Shown here: one piece after another, positions 18,589 to 24,387 of the stretch | Position numbering within the stretch: position 1 is the stretch's first letter | Layout: each line of letters opens with the position of its first letter | NCBI GenBank assembly: GCA_011391495.1 | Contig: JAABQK010000002.1 | Span: 186,001-250,000 of the forward strand | Direction of reading: 5' to 3' | Length of the DNA: 64,000 nt | DNA from: Hydrogenophaga sp. | GTDB taxonomy: Bacteria > Pseudomonadota > Gammaproteobacteria > Burkholderiales > Burkholderiaceae_C | Notes under the pieces: model-generated | Database searches by the model: none | What the model was told of the DNA's origin: nothing | The model's input: the letters and a program-made list of their open reading frames with translations, nothing else | Translations under genes and position numbers: made by a program

Positions 18589-20019
18589 TCAGAGTGGCCA
18601 CTCGTGCACCGGCATGCCGCTGCGCTGGTGTTCGAGGTAATCGGCGGTGAGCCGGAACAGATCGGCGTGGCGCGCGTGGTGGGCGAGTTGCCAGGCGGCG
18701 CCATTGCGCCCGGTGCGCAGCCGCACGGCGATCACGTCGAGATAACGGTCGATGTCGTCCTCGTCGATGTCCTGCAGCCGCAAGCCCTCGCGCGCCAGAG
18801 GCAGCAGCGCTTCCAGCACGGCGGTGACCGGAAGCGTTCGCCCATCGAGCCAGGTGATGCGCGCGCCCAGCCCGTCGCGAGCCGCGCGGTAGAAGTTCTC
18901 CCGCACCTGCTCGAACGTGATGGCAGCCTCGGGAGCTTGCGCCCGTGTGGCCAGCAGGTGGACGACACCATAGTAGAAGGCTGCGTTGGCCATCATGTCG
19001 ATGATGCTCGGACCGGCTGGCATGACACGCTGTTCGATGCGCAAGTGGGGTTCTCCCCTCGCCTCGAAACCGATCAGCAGCCGGTTCCACCGCCACACAG
19101 TGCCGTTCTGCAGGCGCAGGTGAGCGTAGGCATCGGCAGGGGTGTCGCTCAACACGGGCAACAACACCGGAAAACGGGTGAGGTTGTCGGCGAAGATCTC
19201 GGTGGGGTCATCGCCCAGATAAGCGCGACCGAAAGTGACCCGCCGCCCGCCCGGTTGTGCACCATCACCACACTCCACCGCCTGCTCGAACAGCGGAATG
19301 CGCGTCTCGTGCCAGAGCCGGTGTCCGAACAGAAAAGGCGAGTTGGCCGACAGCGCCACGAGGGGCGCACTGAGCACCATCGACGCGTTGAGGTGACGCG
19401 CGATCTGCGACGCACCCACCTGCAGGTGCAGCTGAAAGGACGTCGTGGCTGCCTCCAGCATCACGTCGGCGTGCGTCGTGGCCAGATGATCCGTCGAACC
19501 GGTCATACCGTGGATGTCCAGCACGATCGGCCGCCCAGCGCGGGCGCGCAGGACCTCCCGGTTCAGCGCGACGTAGCGGTTCGATGGCGTCATGCTGCCC
19601 AGGTCGAGATCGCTCTCGCGCAGGGTCGGCAAGGTGCCGATGGCCATCACGGTGACCTCTTCGGCGTGCGCGGCAGCCATGCAGCGCGCCCAGGTACCGG
19701 ACAGCTCGGCCTCCATCCGCGAAAGCGCCTTGCCCTCGATGCGCTGCGGCGTGCTGTTGAGCTCGATGTTGAAGCGCGAGAGTTCCGGCACCACCAGGGG
19801 GTCTGCCAGGCGCTCCAGAAAACGCTGGTTGCAGGGCGCCGGAAAGTGGTGGCGGTCGATCAGCCAGGCCTCGAGCTCAAAACCCGCCACACGGCCACCA
19901 GAGACGAAGCCACCCTGCGCAAAGCGCTGCTGCGCAAGCCGGGTCTCTTCCTCCAGGCGCTGACGAAAGCGCCCAACGTCGTCGGGCGAAAAGCGCGTAG
20001 CGGAAATTTCCTGGCCCAT
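18589..20019 (-). CDS. Glutamate-cysteine ligase family protein (GCS2 / carboxylate-amine ligase type)
   Basis: A 476-residue protein of the GCS2 family. Conserved elements include GFELEAWLID (metal-binding Glu), the ELSRFNIELNSTP segment, a His-rich TFQLHLQVG-like strand (SFQLHLQVGAS) and RIEQRVMPAGPS. The family forms amide or gamma-glutamyl bonds using ATP. Whether this member makes gamma-glutamylcysteine or another product is unknown; the paired zinc hydrolase suggests a dedicated small pathway. The ATG at 20019 gives a normal N-terminus. Confidence 0.8.
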   Translation of the reverse strand: MGQEISATRFSPDDVGRFRQRLEEETRLAQQRFAQGGFVSGGRVAGFELEAWLIDRHHFPAPCNQRFLERLADPLVVPELSRFNIELNSTPQRIEGKALSRMEAELSGTWARCMAAAHAEEVTVMAIGTLPTLRESDLDLGSMTPSNRYVALNREVLRARAGRPIVLDIHGMTGSTDHLATTHADVMLEAATTSFQLHLQVGASQIARHLNASMVLSAPLVALSANSPFLFGHRLWHETRIPLFEQAVECGDGAQPGGRRVTFGRAYLGDDPTEIFADNLTRFPVLLPVLSDTPADAYAHLRLQNGTVWRWNRLLIGFEARGEPHLRIEQRVMPAGPSIIDMMANAAFYYGVVHLLATRAQAPEAAITFEQVRENFYRAARDGLGARITWLDGRTLPVTAVLEALLPLAREGLRLQDIDEDDIDRYLDVIAVRLRTGRNGAAWQLAHHARHADLFRLTADYLEHQRSGMPVHEWPL

Positions 20020-20307
20020 AAGCGTGGTGAAGGCGTCCCCGGCATCCTCAACGATGCTGCGCGACGACTATATCGGAATCCGACCTATGGACTTCTGCGC
20101 CAATTGCACGGTCGACACCCAGAATTAGAAGGTGCTTGGTCACATCTTTGCGGTGCATTGCTTTCAAGGATTCGACCTCGCGACGATCGCAAAACCTGTC
20201 TGGCAGGAGACTCGCCAGTGAACTGGGGTGACCGCCATTCCCTGGATTGCCAGGAAAACAAGCCACCAACACTCAGAGATGAACCACTGCTTTGATCAAA
20301 GCAACAG
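20020..20307. other. Intergenic, no gene recognised
   Basis: About 290 bases between the exosortase stop and the GCS2 gene start. The composition appears less GC-rich than the neighbouring housekeeping DNA. A 74-codon minus-strand frame (20048-20272) lacks any recognisable feature and is not called. Confidence 0.5.
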
Positions 20308-21921
20308 CTACCACAGTGACCAGCTTCCGGTCGTCAAGACGTAGACCGAGAGCAGCCCGTTGGTCGTCGCATGTGCAACGAATGCATCGGCAACATTGTT
20401 GCGATAGAGTCGAACCAGTCCGTATGCGATTCCTGCGAGCAGACCCGCTATCCACGCGCTGTGAAGCAGGCCAAACAGGATTGACGACACGGCAAACGCG
20501 AGCCACGGGAAGCGCGTCCATCCGTTCACGCTTCGGTCAGTGCCCAGCCATTCGAACAGATAGCCTCTAAAGGCAAGCTCCTCGGCAAGTGGCACGGTGA
20601 GCACAGCACCCATGGTTCTGAACACCAACCAAGCGATCAGCAAGCCGGAAGGTATCTCATGCAGGTGCTCGTCTGTCATGGCACTTGCAACGGGATCGTC
20701 TGGAACCATCAGCAACCAGAGCAGGAATACCAACACACCAACTGCTACCGCAAACCCGGTGACGCGGAATGGAATGGTGCGAAAGTGCCGCCAGAGAAGG
20801 GCCAAAGCGCACGCGGTGAGAACCACCCGTAGCGGATACCACCAGTCAACCTTGACTGTCATGGCTGAGGTGATGAGTGTTGCCGACAGCAGCACAACCA
20901 GCGGGATCAGCAGCGCCATTCTGAAGTTGATCGGTTGTGCGCTCGATGTTTGAGAAGAGCGGCTGAACATCGCGCTGCTGTGCGCCAGAAGCAAGATGCA
21001 GGCTGTGACCAGAACGAAACTGATCCAGCCGGCCATACTGTGAAACCCGCCCAGTGCCAGTTCTGGCGAAATCTCGGTACCGATACCAATCAACGCTGCG
21101 ATCCGGAAGATGTTGAAAACCCAGATCGCGGCCACGCCCAACGGCAACAAAAGCAAAGCCTGTGGAAAGCGGAAATCCTGCCAGAAGATGATCAGGTAGA
21201 ACCCGGTGAATATCAGCACCAGGCCAATGCCTTCGTAGCCGGAGCACACGGCTGCAATCTCAACCACGAAGTCGCCCACCCCGAGAATGCGTTGCTGCGG
21301 GTCGACAACGATATCGGCGTAAAACAGTTGAAGCAACGAGGTCGCCGCGTTGAAAGTGCCTCCGCTCAATGGATCCCATAGACCTTGAGTAACCAGCGTG
21401 AAGCTCCAGGTCAGCACGGCAACAGCGCAGGCAAAACCAATGGTGATTGCCTCTTCCCGCGCAAATCGGAGCCACCATCCGATCGGTGCGATCGTGTGCA
21501 GCCAAAGTACGGCGACAAACGCCAGCGAGGCCAACCAGAACAAGGGCAGAGGAAATGCAGGCCCATCCCAACGGCTGGCTGCCGTCGAAAAGATCAGGTA
21601 GGTCAGGACAAAGAACAGCAGGTAGGTACTGAGTTGCAGCGAGAGCCACAAACGGTAACGATGCCCATCAGCGGCCTGATGCAGCTGCAGGCTCCAGTGC
21701 TTCAGTCTCGGGCCCAGCGCCACCAGCAAGGCGACGGCCCAGATGAACAAGATTTTTGATGCAGCACCTGCTTGCCCCAGCCACGCGTAACCGCTGGCAG
21801 CGTGCGGTTCTGGCAATGTCGAGGCGTCAAATGCGACAGAGATTGTCAATGCCTGGACAACAATCAGCAAAACCAGCAGGCAAAGGCGGGCGGTGGTGGT
21901 TCGTATCGGCGAAGCATCCAT
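20308..21921 (-). CDS. xrtE: Exosortase E / CPBP-protease fusion (VPEID-CTERM system)
   Basis: A 537-residue polytopic membrane protein with two enzyme modules. The N-terminal half (~1-315) is an exosortase with the candidate catalytic triad Cys226 (AAVCSGYEG), Arg273 (NIFRIAALI) and His294 (FHSMAGW). The C-terminal half (~335-537) is a CPBP/CAAX-like intramembrane protease with Glu447-Glu448 and Arg452 (EELAFRG), His487 (FGLLHS) and His517/Asn521 (HATTN). This architecture is the exosortase E/protease fusion of the VPEID-CTERM system. The expected job is to cleave, and perhaps transfer, a C-terminally tagged exported protein. ATG at 21921 is preferred over a TTG at 21972. The putative substrate gene lies 91 bases upstream on the same strand. 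Confidence 0.9.
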   Translation of the reverse strand: MDASPIRTTTARLCLLVLLIVVQALTISVAFDASTLPEPHAASGYAWLGQAGAASKILFIWAVALLVALGPRLKHWSLQLHQAADGHRYRLWLSLQLSTYLLFFVLTYLIFSTAASRWDGPAFPLPLFWLASLAFVAVLWLHTIAPIGWWLRFAREEAITIGFACAVAVLTWSFTLVTQGLWDPLSGGTFNAATSLLQLFYADIVVDPQQRILGVGDFVVEIAAVCSGYEGIGLVLIFTGFYLIIFWQDFRFPQALLLLPLGVAAIWVFNIFRIAALIGIGTEISPELALGGFHSMAGWISFVLVTACILLLAHSSAMFSRSSQTSSAQPINFRMALLIPLVVLLSATLITSAMTVKVDWWYPLRVVLTACALALLWRHFRTIPFRVTGFAVAVGVLVFLLWLLMVPDDPVASAMTDEHLHEIPSGLLIAWLVFRTMGAVLTVPLAEELAFRGYLFEWLGTDRSVNGWTRFPWLAFAVSSILFGLLHSAWIAGLLAGIAYGLVRLYRNNVADAFVAHATTNGLLSVYVLTTGSWSLW

Positions 21922-22012
21922 CTCAGAGAGGCCCGTTGCAAAACGGATGCCGGATTGGGAATGTCTGCTCAACCGGCCGAGGGAAACGGCCAGTTGGCAA
22001 AGGGAGACCGAA

Positions 22013-22285
22013 TCAGCGCGTGCGGCGCTTTTCGCGAATCAGGCCGCCCACGGCGAGGGTCAGCCCGAGTGCCATCACTGCCATGCTGCCGTCGAGTTCC
22101 GGAACTGCACGCACAGATGTCGAAGGAGACGGGCTCTGGGGGTGCTGAGAGGCGTGATAGGTCTGAAACCATTGGATCAACTGGGTAAACCAGCTACCAG
22201 ACTGCTCCCTGGATCCGCTTTGAGCCAATGCATTTCCGGACAGAAGCAGCGCGAATACCAGTGCCGTAAGAGTTTTGCGTGCCAT
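22013..22285 (-). CDS. VPEID-CTERM sorting-signal protein (putative exosortase E substrate)
   Basis: A 90-residue exported protein. The signal peptide is residues 1-21 (ALA cleavage before Gln22). The mature part is short, Ser/Gln/Pro-rich and low in complexity (~22-59). The C-terminus has the tripartite sorting signal: VPELD at 61-65, a hydrophobic helix ~67-83 and a basic tail EKRRTR. The motif differs from VPEID only by Ile to Leu. AGAGGAT stands seven bases before the ATG at 22285. It is adjacent to and upstream of the exosortase fusion, on the same strand, as expected for a dedicated enzyme-substrate pair. The cellular role of the protein is unknown. Confidence 0.85.
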   Translation of the reverse strand: MARKTLTALVFALLLSGNALAQSGSREQSGSWFTQLIQWFQTYHASQHPQSPSPSTSVRAVPELDGSMAVMALGLTLAVGGLIREKRRTR

Positions 22286-22478
22286 GGATGATCCTCTTGG
22301 GAAATGTGAAAGTTCAGACAAGCACCCGGTCTGTATCGAGTTGTTACATTATGCCCCCAACGGGTTTACGATATGGATCAAAAGCTCGACCTCGTTACAA
22401 GTTTTTGAGTTTTCGTGACGCTTGACTCGGAGCCGATTGAAATGGGTCGTGTGCTCACACCAGTGCGGGGGGAACAAA

Positions 22479-22519
22479 AAATCAACAAGTGCGACGACAG
22501 CAGGTCATTGCACCTGCTG
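22479..22519 (-). terminator. Possible terminator after lpdA
   Basis: On the minus strand an 8-bp perfect stem CAGCAGGT / ACCTGCTG (22498-22519) with a 6-base loop is followed about 17 bases later by a run of six Ts. The gap makes it a non-classical terminator. Confidence 0.35.
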
Positions 22520-22557
22520 ACCTCCTGCTCGGTGACTCGACCCAATTCGCGTAACCA

Positions 22558-24387
22558 CTATTTCCGGGCCGGTGGCAGGTCGGTACAAGACCCGTGCGCC
22601 ACCTCCGCCGCCATGCCAATGCTCTCGCCCAGTGTCGGGTGCGGATGGATGGTCTTGCCGATGTCCACCGCGTCGGCGCCCATCTCGATCGCCAGCGCGA
22701 TCTCGCCAATCATGTCGCCCGCGTGGGTGCCGACCATGCCGCCGCCCAGGATCTTGCCGTGGCCGTGCGCTTCCGGGCTGTCGTCGAACAGCAGCTTGGT
22801 CACGCCTTCGTCGCGGCCATTCGCAATCGCGCGGCCGGAAGCCGTCCAGGGGAACAGGCCCTTCTTGACCTTGATGCCTTGCGCCTTGGCCTGGTCTTCG
22901 GTGAGGCCCACCCAGGCCACCTCGGGGTCGGTGTAGGCCACGCTGGGGATCACGCGTGCGTTGAAGGCGGCCGCGGCCAGCTCCTTGTTGCCCTGCAGTT
23001 CGCCGGCGATGACTTCCGCCGCCACGTGCGCCTCGTGCACCGCCTTGTGCGCCAGCATGGGCTGGCCCACGATGTCGCCGATGGCGAAGATGTGCGGCAC
23101 GTTGGTGCGCATCTGGATATCGACGTTGATGAAGCCCCGGTCGGTCACGGCCACGCCAGCCTTGTCGGCGGCGATCTTCTTGCCGTTGGGCGTGCGGCCC
23201 ACGGCTTGCAGCACCAGGTCGTACACCTGCGGCGCCGGGGCGGTACCGCCCTCTTCCGCTGGCGCAAACGTCACCTCAATGCCTTCGGGTGTGGCCCTGG
23301 CCCCCACCGTCTTGGTCTTGAGCATGATGTTGTCGAAGCGCTTGGCGTTCATCTTCTGCCAGATCTTGACCAAGTCGCGGTCGGCTCCCTGCATCAGGCC
23401 GTCGAGCATTTCCACCACGTCCAGGCGGGCGCCCAGCGTGCTGTAGACGGTGCCCATTTCCAGACCGATGATGCCGCCGCCCAGGATCAGCATGCGCTTG
23501 GGCACTTCTTTCAAGGCCAGAGCGCCGGTGCTGTCCACCACGCGCGGATCGTCGGGCATGAAGGGCAGGCGCACCGCCTGCGAGCCGGCGGCGATGATGC
23601 ACTTCTTGAACACCACGACCTTCTTGCTGCCGGTCTTCTCCTGGCCAGTGCCGGTGGTCTCTTCCACTTCCACATGGTTGGGACCGACAAAGGCGCCGTA
23701 GCCGCGCACGGTGGTGACCTTGCGCATCTTGGCCATCGCTGCCAGGCCGCCGGTGAGCTTGTTGATGACCTTTTCCTTGTGGCCACGCAGCTTGTCCACG
23801 TTGACCGAGGGCGCGCCAAAGTCCACGCCCAGATCGGCCATGTGGCTGACTTCGTCCATCACCGCCGCCACGTGCAGCAGCGCCTTGGACGGGATGCAAC
23901 CCACGTTCAGGCACACGCCACCCAACTGGGCGTAACGCTCGACCAGCACAACCTTCAGGCCGAGGTCGGCCGCGCGGAACGCGGCCGAGTAGCCACCCGG
24001 GCCGGCACCGAGCACAAGCAGGTCGCACTCAAGATCAGCGTTGCCGCCGAAGCTGACAGCGGTGGGAGCCACGACCGGAGCGGCAGCAGCGGGTGCCGGC
24101 GCAGCAGCTGCGGGCGCTGCGGCTGGAGCGGCAGGAGTACCGACAGCGCCCTCACCTTCCAGGACCAGCACCACCGAGCCCTGCTTGACCTTGTCGCCCA
24201 GCTTGACCTTGAGCTCCTTCACCACGCCGGCGTGCGACGAGGGAATTTCCATCGAGGCCTTGTCGGACTCCACGGTGATCAGGCTTTGCTCAGCCTTGAC
24301 GGTGTCGCCGGGTTTGACCAGCAACTCGATGACCGCGACCTCGTCGAAGTCGCCAATGTCGGGAACCTGGATATCAATGACTGCCAT
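22558..24387 (-). CDS. lpdA: Dihydrolipoyl dehydrogenase (PDH E3) with N-terminal lipoyl domain
   Basis: A 609-residue E3 of pyruvate dehydrogenase, re-oxidising dihydrolipoamide with NAD+. Residues 1-80 form a lipoyl domain (lipoyl-lysine Lys43 in ESDKASME), then an Ala/Pro linker (~85-112), then the flavoprotein: FAD motif GAGPGG (~128), redox disulfide Cys159/Cys164 (GGVCLNVGC), an NAD-binding [10 protein letters not shown] motif and the C-terminal active-site HPHPTLGES. It lies 12 bases downstream of aceF. The fused lipoyl domain is known in several betaproteobacteria and Neisseria. Confidence 0.96.

Follow-up and report, generated by a model that had tools for sequence, protein, structure and literature searches.

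What does an exosortase fused to a protease process when the gene beside it encodes one small protein ending in a VPELD tag? This question is raised by a two-gene module in a 64,000-nt stretch of DNA from Hydrogenophaga sp. (assembly GCA_011391495.1, contig JAABQK010000002.1, positions 186,001 to 250,000; hereafter the window). The module is probably a dedicated precursor-processing system for short, exchangeable peptides, in which the enzyme and the tag would form the constant unit and the cargo would usually be short and changeable. This reading draws on the pair and its linkage across loci, the conserved residues of the enzyme, the selection acting on the tag, a change of cargo type between Hydrogenophaga species, and a predicted cargo that is usually small.

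The module consists of two minus-strand open reading frames (ORFs), one of 537 aa at 20308-21921 and one of 90 aa at 22013-22285 immediately upstream. A first-pass annotation of this DNA had described them as a fusion protein and a VPELD-tailed protein adjoining on the same strand, and both ORFs are indeed present at those positions, the small gene being adjacent to the exosortase E gene at a spacing of 91 bp. The 90-aa protein begins with a segment like a signal peptide, followed by a 39-residue middle and a 30-residue VPELD tail. The features of the module are as follows.

20308..21921, minus strand: xrtE, exosortase E / CPBP (CAAX-type) protease fusion of 537 aa (family models, AlphaFold2 model)
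21244..21246, minus strand: codon of Cys226, the predicted exosortase nucleophile (invariant in 81 homologs)
21103-21105, minus strand: codon of Arg273, with Cys226 and His294 the conserved exosortase set
21040-21042, minus strand: codon of His294, with Cys226 and Arg273 the conserved exosortase set
20566..20583, minus strand: codons of Glu447-Arg452, the EExxxR motif of the CPBP half (E447, E448 and R452 invariant in 81 homologs)
22013..22285, minus strand: small secreted tag-bearing protein of 90 aa, presumed substrate (ORF; the only strong tail match of the genome)
22223..22285, minus strand: predicted signal peptide of 21 aa, ending in ALA (ALA/AMA site; home-made rule)
22106..22222, minus strand: middle (cargo) segment of 39 aa, whose type varies between Hydrogenophaga species
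22016..22105, minus strand: VPELD-helix-basic C-terminal tag of 30 aa (97-100% identity to three relatives; leave-out profile)

The fused enzyme

The proposed exosortase-protease fusion is borne out by the exosortase E hidden Markov model, as XrtE scored 236.4 bits against NCBIfam TIGR04162 (exo_VPEID; cut-off 150) over model positions 2-515 of 516. XrtE also exceeded the cut-offs of TIGR03008 (CAAX-type protease; 140.5 bits, cut-off 81.05), Pfam Rce1-like (55.5 bits, cut-off 22.4), TIGR04178 (exosortase/archaeosortase; 50.7 bits, cut-off 23) and Pfam Exosortase_EpsH (29.7 bits, cut-off 25.7). It is distant from the core of TIGR04162, scoring 236 bits versus 747 and 590 for two other members. 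An alignment was built from 81 XrtE homologs of Pseudomonadota, Acidobacteriota, Planctomycetota, Myxococcota and Thermodesulfobacteriota, with four not grouped; the loci L048 and L089, which have no intact XrtE frame by the pattern used, were left out. All 81 homologs match TIGR04162, TIGR03008 and TIGR04178 at E<=1e-5. Cys226, Arg273 and His294 of the exosortase half, which we take to be the catalytic Cys-Arg-His triad of exosortases, are invariant in 81/81. Glu447, Glu448, Arg452, Phe483 and His487 of the CPBP half are likewise invariant in 81/81, and His517 and Asn521 are nearly so. Residues 483-487 form FxxxH; EEXXXR and FXXXH are named as CPBP motifs in a passage of PMC10482373. The AlphaFold2 model is of high confidence and mostly helical (predicted local distance difference test, pLDDT, 90.7; predicted template modelling score, pTM, 0.84). 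A sequence search for a related solved structure found none, and fold comparison of the 537-residue model gave no match beyond common helical arrangements. On the full-length model score, the conserved residues and the CPBP motifs, XrtE is by sequence a member of the exosortase E/protease family in both of its halves.

The tag and its detection

The 90-aa protein gave no NCBIfam or Pfam match over cut-off, and TIGR04161 (VPEID-CTERM, cut-off 33 bits) left it unmatched at E<=10; a search of the source genome with the same model returned nothing at the place of the gene at E<=1. The name VPEID-CTERM system, used in the first-pass annotation, therefore suits the enzyme, which passes TIGR04162, and does not extend to the 90-aa protein, which fails TIGR04161. 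The TIGR04161 cut-off was reached by a tail in only 4 of 15 XrtE genomes tested. A new tail profile of 30 positions was made from 55 tails collected beside XrtE homologs, together with a leave-out version (52 of the 55 rows) from which tails more than 55% identical to the window tail were removed. With the leave-out profile, the window tail was found at E 6.5e-9 among 1046 stop-to-stop frames of the window (next best 0.034), and its similarity exceeds chance. When the source genome was searched with the full profile, which includes the window tail, the 90-aa protein scored 8.3e-11 and the next frame 0.089, so that the suggested genome-wide search for other VPExD tails yielded no second strong match. 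As a control, 150 host-family genomes gave a full-length tail match in the source genome only, and one other match that was partial and weak. Across 75 XrtE genomes searched, a tail at E<=0.001 was present in 74, and among the genomes that supplied no row to the profile, in 16 of 17; six of these 17 (L041, L067, L078, L090, L100, L101) have near relatives in it. The new profile thus recovers substrates missed by the current VPEID-CTERM model.

The tag is under strong constraint. In four species comparisons within Hydrogenophaga, it carries 0-1 nonsynonymous versus 6-10 synonymous substitutions, and the ratio of nonsynonymous to synonymous rates (dN/dS; for the small gene, over 21-39 codons) is 0.03 or less for the tag and 0.13-0.16 for XrtE. 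Judged from these ratios, purifying selection is stronger on the tag than on XrtE. Moreover, of 28 locus pairs with XrtE >=55% identical, 27 show higher conservation of the tag than of the best-matching middle.

Linkage and number of substrates

A tail ORF lies within the fetched flanks at 65/82 XrtE loci (63/82 by the leave-out profile, E-values per locus). There were 90 tail ORFs, 85 of them in loci with a mapped xrtE; all 85 are on the same strand as xrtE, 79 upstream, 5 downstream and 1 overlapping, and the nearest tail ORF lies at a median of 82 nt from xrtE (60 loci). Outside this count of 85, the tail gene and xrtE are convergent in L031 and L032. Among the loci with no tail nearby whose genome was searched, most have a tail elsewhere in the genome.

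The pair had been regarded as a one-enzyme, one-substrate system. This holds for the source genome, an assembly 86% complete in which the fusion is the only exosortase found, and for three near Hydrogenophaga genomes, each with one strong tail match like the source genome. It does not hold as a rule: at E<=0.001, a single tail is present in 42 of the 75 XrtE genomes, more than one in 32 and none in one (19, 6 and 0 in a set of 25; 23, 26 and 1 in a set of 50), counts that incomplete assemblies would lower.

Size of the predicted cargo

The stretch from the predicted signal-peptide cut site to the tag is usually small, with a median of 12 residues and 15 or fewer (3-15) in 45 of 85 genes. The cut site comes from a home-made rule, which places the cut identically in the three orthologs of the window protein. 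At 23 of 65 loci, the cargo is <=15 residues in all adjacent tail genes. As 19 of 150 tail-bearing frames measure <=60 aa from stop to stop, the small cargo does not depend on start-codon choice alone. In Singulisphaera acidiphila, the single strong tail match is a 59-aa protein with five middle residues. The smallest members in the fetched loci (L065:5690-5833 and L066:56-199) are 42-aa proteins with no signal peptide and with MGWA[SA]FAAAYCPP before a VPEFD tag. Tandem arrays of similar precursors occur at L080, L087, L090, L100, L101 and L102, with short middles of 4-11 residues in 18/21. In the Marinicaulis-group arrays, 20 distinct middles are found in 21 genes with middles <=40 aa.

Change of cargo within Hydrogenophaga

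The module follows lpdA in four Hydrogenophaga species, represented by the window and by L034, L035 and L036 (L145, L141 and L129 look identical to the latter three by eye). The two features on the lpdA side are as follows.

22286..22557, minus strand: intergenic stretch of 272 bp between lpdA and the substrate gene, within the unalike stretch (between-type identity mostly 25-50%)
22558..24387, minus strand: lpdA (lipoyl domain and dihydrolipoyl dehydrogenase), left neighbour and not a functional part of the module (TIGR01350, 457.7 bits, cut-off 408.8)

The window XrtE is equidistant from two of the relatives (85.8% identical to L035, 85.7% to L036), and the tags are 100% and 97% identical, respectively, whereas the middle segment of the window is 56% identical to that of L035 and only 10-11% identical to those of L036 and L034. 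Between the window and L036, synonymous differences per site are 0.37 for xrtE, 0.34 for lpdA, 0.40 for the tag and 0.64 for the middle, in which nonsynonymous differences reach 0.71. Identity between the two types in 40-column steps is mostly 25-50% from just past the lpdA stop to the tag, with values of up to 62% near the signal peptide and of 82-90% over the tag. The synonymous pace of xrtE and lpdA is equal in all four pairs computed, which suggests that xrtE descended with the rest of the chromosome and that only the cargo part was replaced. Very fast divergence of the stretch from the lpdA stop to the tag alone is an alternative. Within a type, the middle has a dN/dS of 0.22 and 0.15 (39 codons).

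A fifth, more distant copy of the module in genome G772 is 59% identical and lies in another genome place. Its middle is akin to that of the window type (as good a match in 0 of 500 shuffles), whereas no relation to the L034/L036 type was detected (248 and 129 of 500 shuffles). Given this kinship, the L034/L036 cargo type is probably the newcomer. A fixed cargo length of 39 aa was considered and rejected, as the length is equal in the four species but 51 aa in G772. At L157:8060-9210, transposase-like ORFs (by eye) directly adjoin the G772 module.

Proposed processing and competing explanations

In the processing scheme that we consider probable, the small protein would be exported by Sec and its signal peptide removed. 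The 39-residue peptide would stay held in the inner membrane by the helix of the VPELD tag, with the basic end inside. The exosortase half (Cys226, Arg273 and His294) would cut at the tag, and that cut would release the peptide or pass it on to an acceptor in the envelope. A second cut within the membrane, made by the CPBP half (Glu447/Glu448, His487 and His517), would most likely clear or trim what is left of the helix. We infer the export, both cuts and their order, the acceptor and the destination; the peptide may be displayed on the surface, be released or serve as a signal.

Several findings weigh against this scheme. Large cargo exists: genome G690 (L117) has tagged proteins of 563 and 578 aa, nine of ten tails in G753 sit on frames of 258-821 aa, and L049 has three tail genes of 252-362 aa. 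The rule for signal-peptide cutting worked on 85 of 90 tail genes and failed on 5, and the VPEID-CTERM model is blind to the window substrate. No nearby tail was found at 17 of 82 loci, some of which are contig ends; the L068 genome has no tail, and the only tail of the L085 genome reaches just 8.3e-4. The tally of 75 genomes is partly circular, most of them having supplied a row to the profile, an objection answered in part by the leave-out test and the 17 genomes with no row of their own. Because the signal peptides of the two Hydrogenophaga types are still 48-52% identical, exchange of the entire 5' part by one clean cut-and-paste is only a possibility, and the signal peptides may or may not have been replaced along with the cargo. 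Finally, a conserved acceptor-making enzyme was not found.

The strongest competitor, possible but distinctly less likely than short-peptide processing, is surface sorting of the ordinary PEP-CTERM and extracellular polysaccharide (EPS) kind, in which XrtE would put one small envelope protein onto the cell surface or into the matrix and the middle would be a variable, low-complexity surface linker. The module shares the exosortase half and the tripartite tag with the PEP-CTERM/EpsH system, and the large cargo just mentioned, as well as Gly-rich or Pro-rich middles in several members, would suit it. Passages of PMC12188702 tie exosortases to EPS and biofilm and describe PEP-CTERM proteins as highly divergent except at their ends. 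A cluster of export-protein-like ORFs lies <=5 kb from xrtE in 5/77 loci, those of four methanotrophs and one Noviherbaspirillum (by eye). The first-pass annotation had seen no other EPS machinery beside the pair, which stands for the source genome as regards exosortases, Poly_export and PEP-CTERM, the only families searched, and fails for the XrtE family overall. The source genome differs from the PEP-CTERM/EpsH system in having no Poly_export match over cut-off and no PEP-CTERM (PF07589) match at E<=1e-4, of which 35 of 80 family genomes have some; these absences are provisional, since the assembly is 86% complete. The substrates are also mostly much shorter. The median frame length is 254.5 aa for PEP-CTERM proteins of the host family (best 150 rows listed) versus 93.5 aa for XrtE-type tails, and frames of <=100 aa number 2/150 among the former and 86/150 among the latter. 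A predicted cargo of 3-15 residues in over half of the genes leaves little to sort, so that cargo sorting is doubtful as the role of the module in many XrtE members. In addition, the dN/dS of the middle within a type implies more constraint than a free linker needs.

The short-peptide reading could be widened to the statement that exosortase E modules are, rather than protein sorters, maturation machines for short, species-specific peptides (a few to ~40 residues), made from a precursor in which the tag is the most constant part and the cargo is exchanged up to the tag boundary, the fused Cys and CPBP proteases freeing or lipid-linking them as a convergent Gram-negative counterpart of AgrB/MroQ; in this breadth it is speculative and rather doubtful. 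AgrB is a Cys protease unrelated to exosortases. AgrB and MroQ are separate proteins, unlike the halves of XrtE, and their precursor has another architecture. The agr parallel is an analogy of working, not of kinship or membership. In both cases a short precursor would be matured by a membrane Cys protease together with a CPBP protease: AgrD is processed by AgrB and MroQ (PMC10482373), and EEXXXR and FXXXH are common to MroQ and XrtE.

The narrower proposal that the module matures an agr-like signal, a free or lipid-linked, species-variable peptide read by neighbours, is unlikely. It is favoured by the short variable middles between a more constant signal peptide and tag in the Marinicaulis-group tandem arrays, and by the Hydrogenophaga cargo, which differs up to the tag boundary and is constrained within a type, as well as by the likeness to AgrD processing. 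However, no conserved receptor gene adjoins the pair, the members with large cargo misfit, and AgrD is not known to have a signal peptide or helix tag like the one here. Kinase-like ORFs (by eye) were considered as conserved receptor partners and rejected, as they touch 14/77 loci at scattered distances.

It is less likely still that the small protein is an unprocessed helper or regulator subunit of XrtE, with the tag as a docking helix. A near-fixed tag beside the enzyme, at times preceded by next to nothing, and the two 42-aa members lacking a signal peptide would fit such a subunit. By contrast, tail copies also occur in tandem, at a distance from xrtE and on large, unrelated proteins, which argues for a tag rather than a subunit, and the motif, helix and basic end are arranged like known processing signals.

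Distribution, origin and neighbouring genes

The enzyme has its nearest relatives in Hydrogenophaga (83-86% identity), where XrtE is present in 5/67 genomes of the genus. XrtE passes the TIGR04162 cut-off in 1/299 genomes of the family, which is the source genome, and in 4/398 of the phylum, the source genome included. A quick tree of 81 homologs places the four Hydrogenophaga sequences in a set of 14 (support 96) whose other members are nine gammaproteobacterial rows and Rhodoferax lacus; the last also belongs to the host family, yet groups with Mangrovimicrobium (support 88) and not with Hydrogenophaga. Their position among gammaproteobacterial rows makes it likely that the module was gained by transfer, and the G+C content of ~57% in 20000-22500, versus 61-68% in the surroundings, fits an acquired module. 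A decaying acquired module with no function, as its patchy occurrence and low G+C might suggest, is highly improbable in view of the dN/dS of XrtE and the tag and of the intact conserved residues in both halves.

A search of 60 genomes for lpdA gave 52 matches in 49 of them; of the best 30 loci, which were read, 26 have no XrtE or substrate match in the 1.5-kb flank. These loci nevertheless do not amount to a clean empty site, as the window's glutamate-cysteine-ligase-like (GCS-like) gene is not beside lpdA in those loci either. Lone TIGR03008-type proteases look common: 67/266 good family genomes match the fused model, mainly through the protease half. A tie between such lone proteases (L002-L030) and exosortases was rejected, as 0/29 loci had an exosortase within the 1.5-kb flanks.

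In the window, the module is flanked by lpdA before it and the GCS-like gene after it. AAGAGGA stands just 5' of the ATG of the 90-aa protein (by eye). The 91-bp spacer (21922-22012) is 76-84% identical to those of three relatives and holds an imperfect inverted repeat (by eye). A scan for a transcription terminator after lpdA and for a sigma-70 promoter found neither. Regarding a third conserved module gene, 709 neighbouring ORFs (crude calls, 77 loci) were clustered and no family common to many lineages emerged, the two largest clusters touching 14 and 9 of the 77 loci. Near xrtE, at L038:7561-8385, L039:7577-8368 and L091:6017-6808, lies a gene of the fatty-acid-hydroxylase family, with the PF04116 match documented in L038 and L091. 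Its cluster mates occur in L038 and L039, where they lie 22-26 nt downstream, in L091 and in six Marinicaulis-group loci; this neighbour hints at lipid chemistry, yet is too sparse to use. Kinase-like and fatty-acid-hydroxylase-like ORFs recur beside the arrays of L080, L087, L090, L100, L101 and L102. In the planctomycete loci L062, L069, L094 and L111, a large protein with an LEPR/FERR-like N-terminus (by eye) is encoded 89-432 nt downstream of xrtE. The two large tagged proteins of L117 adjoin each other away from xrtE and are repetitive and adhesin-like by eye.

Relationship to known systems and significance

The module resembles the VPEID-CTERM system (TIGR04162/TIGR04161) in its fused enzyme over the cut-off and the adjoining small VPExD-helix-basic protein; it differs in a tag missed by TIGR04161 and in a cargo type that varies between close species. 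Four fusions of EpsH-like and CAAX-protease-like domains were already recorded in 2006, according to a passage of PMC1569441. Myxosortase and MrtJ/JDVT-CTERM are alike in that a CPBP protease acts on a C-terminal tag, whereas their CPBP protease has no exosortase half, unlike XrtE. As excerpted from PMC11980579, the CPBP relative MrtX cleaves the C-terminal MYXO-CTERM tag in E. coli, JDVT-CTERM also has a two-gene, one-target neighbourhood, and MYXO-CTERM has an invariant Cys; the tag of the XrtE module has no Cys. In the library searched, no paper mentions VPEID-CTERM, a wider search turned up only three papers whose titles concern other subjects, and none brings exosortases together with a small peptide and a pheromone.

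Databases list exosortase E by name, and the present module is a minimal one, with two genes and the only exosortase found in its genome. It could therefore be transferred to E. coli to ask how the exosortase acts on the tag and what the protease contributes. The change of cargo in Hydrogenophaga and the near-absent cargo in many relatives predict that the product would be a short peptide. A constant enzyme and tag combined with a swappable or near-nil cargo call into question a main role in sorting large surface proteins, and, if this is true, some members of a family now classed as protein sorters would work on another scale.

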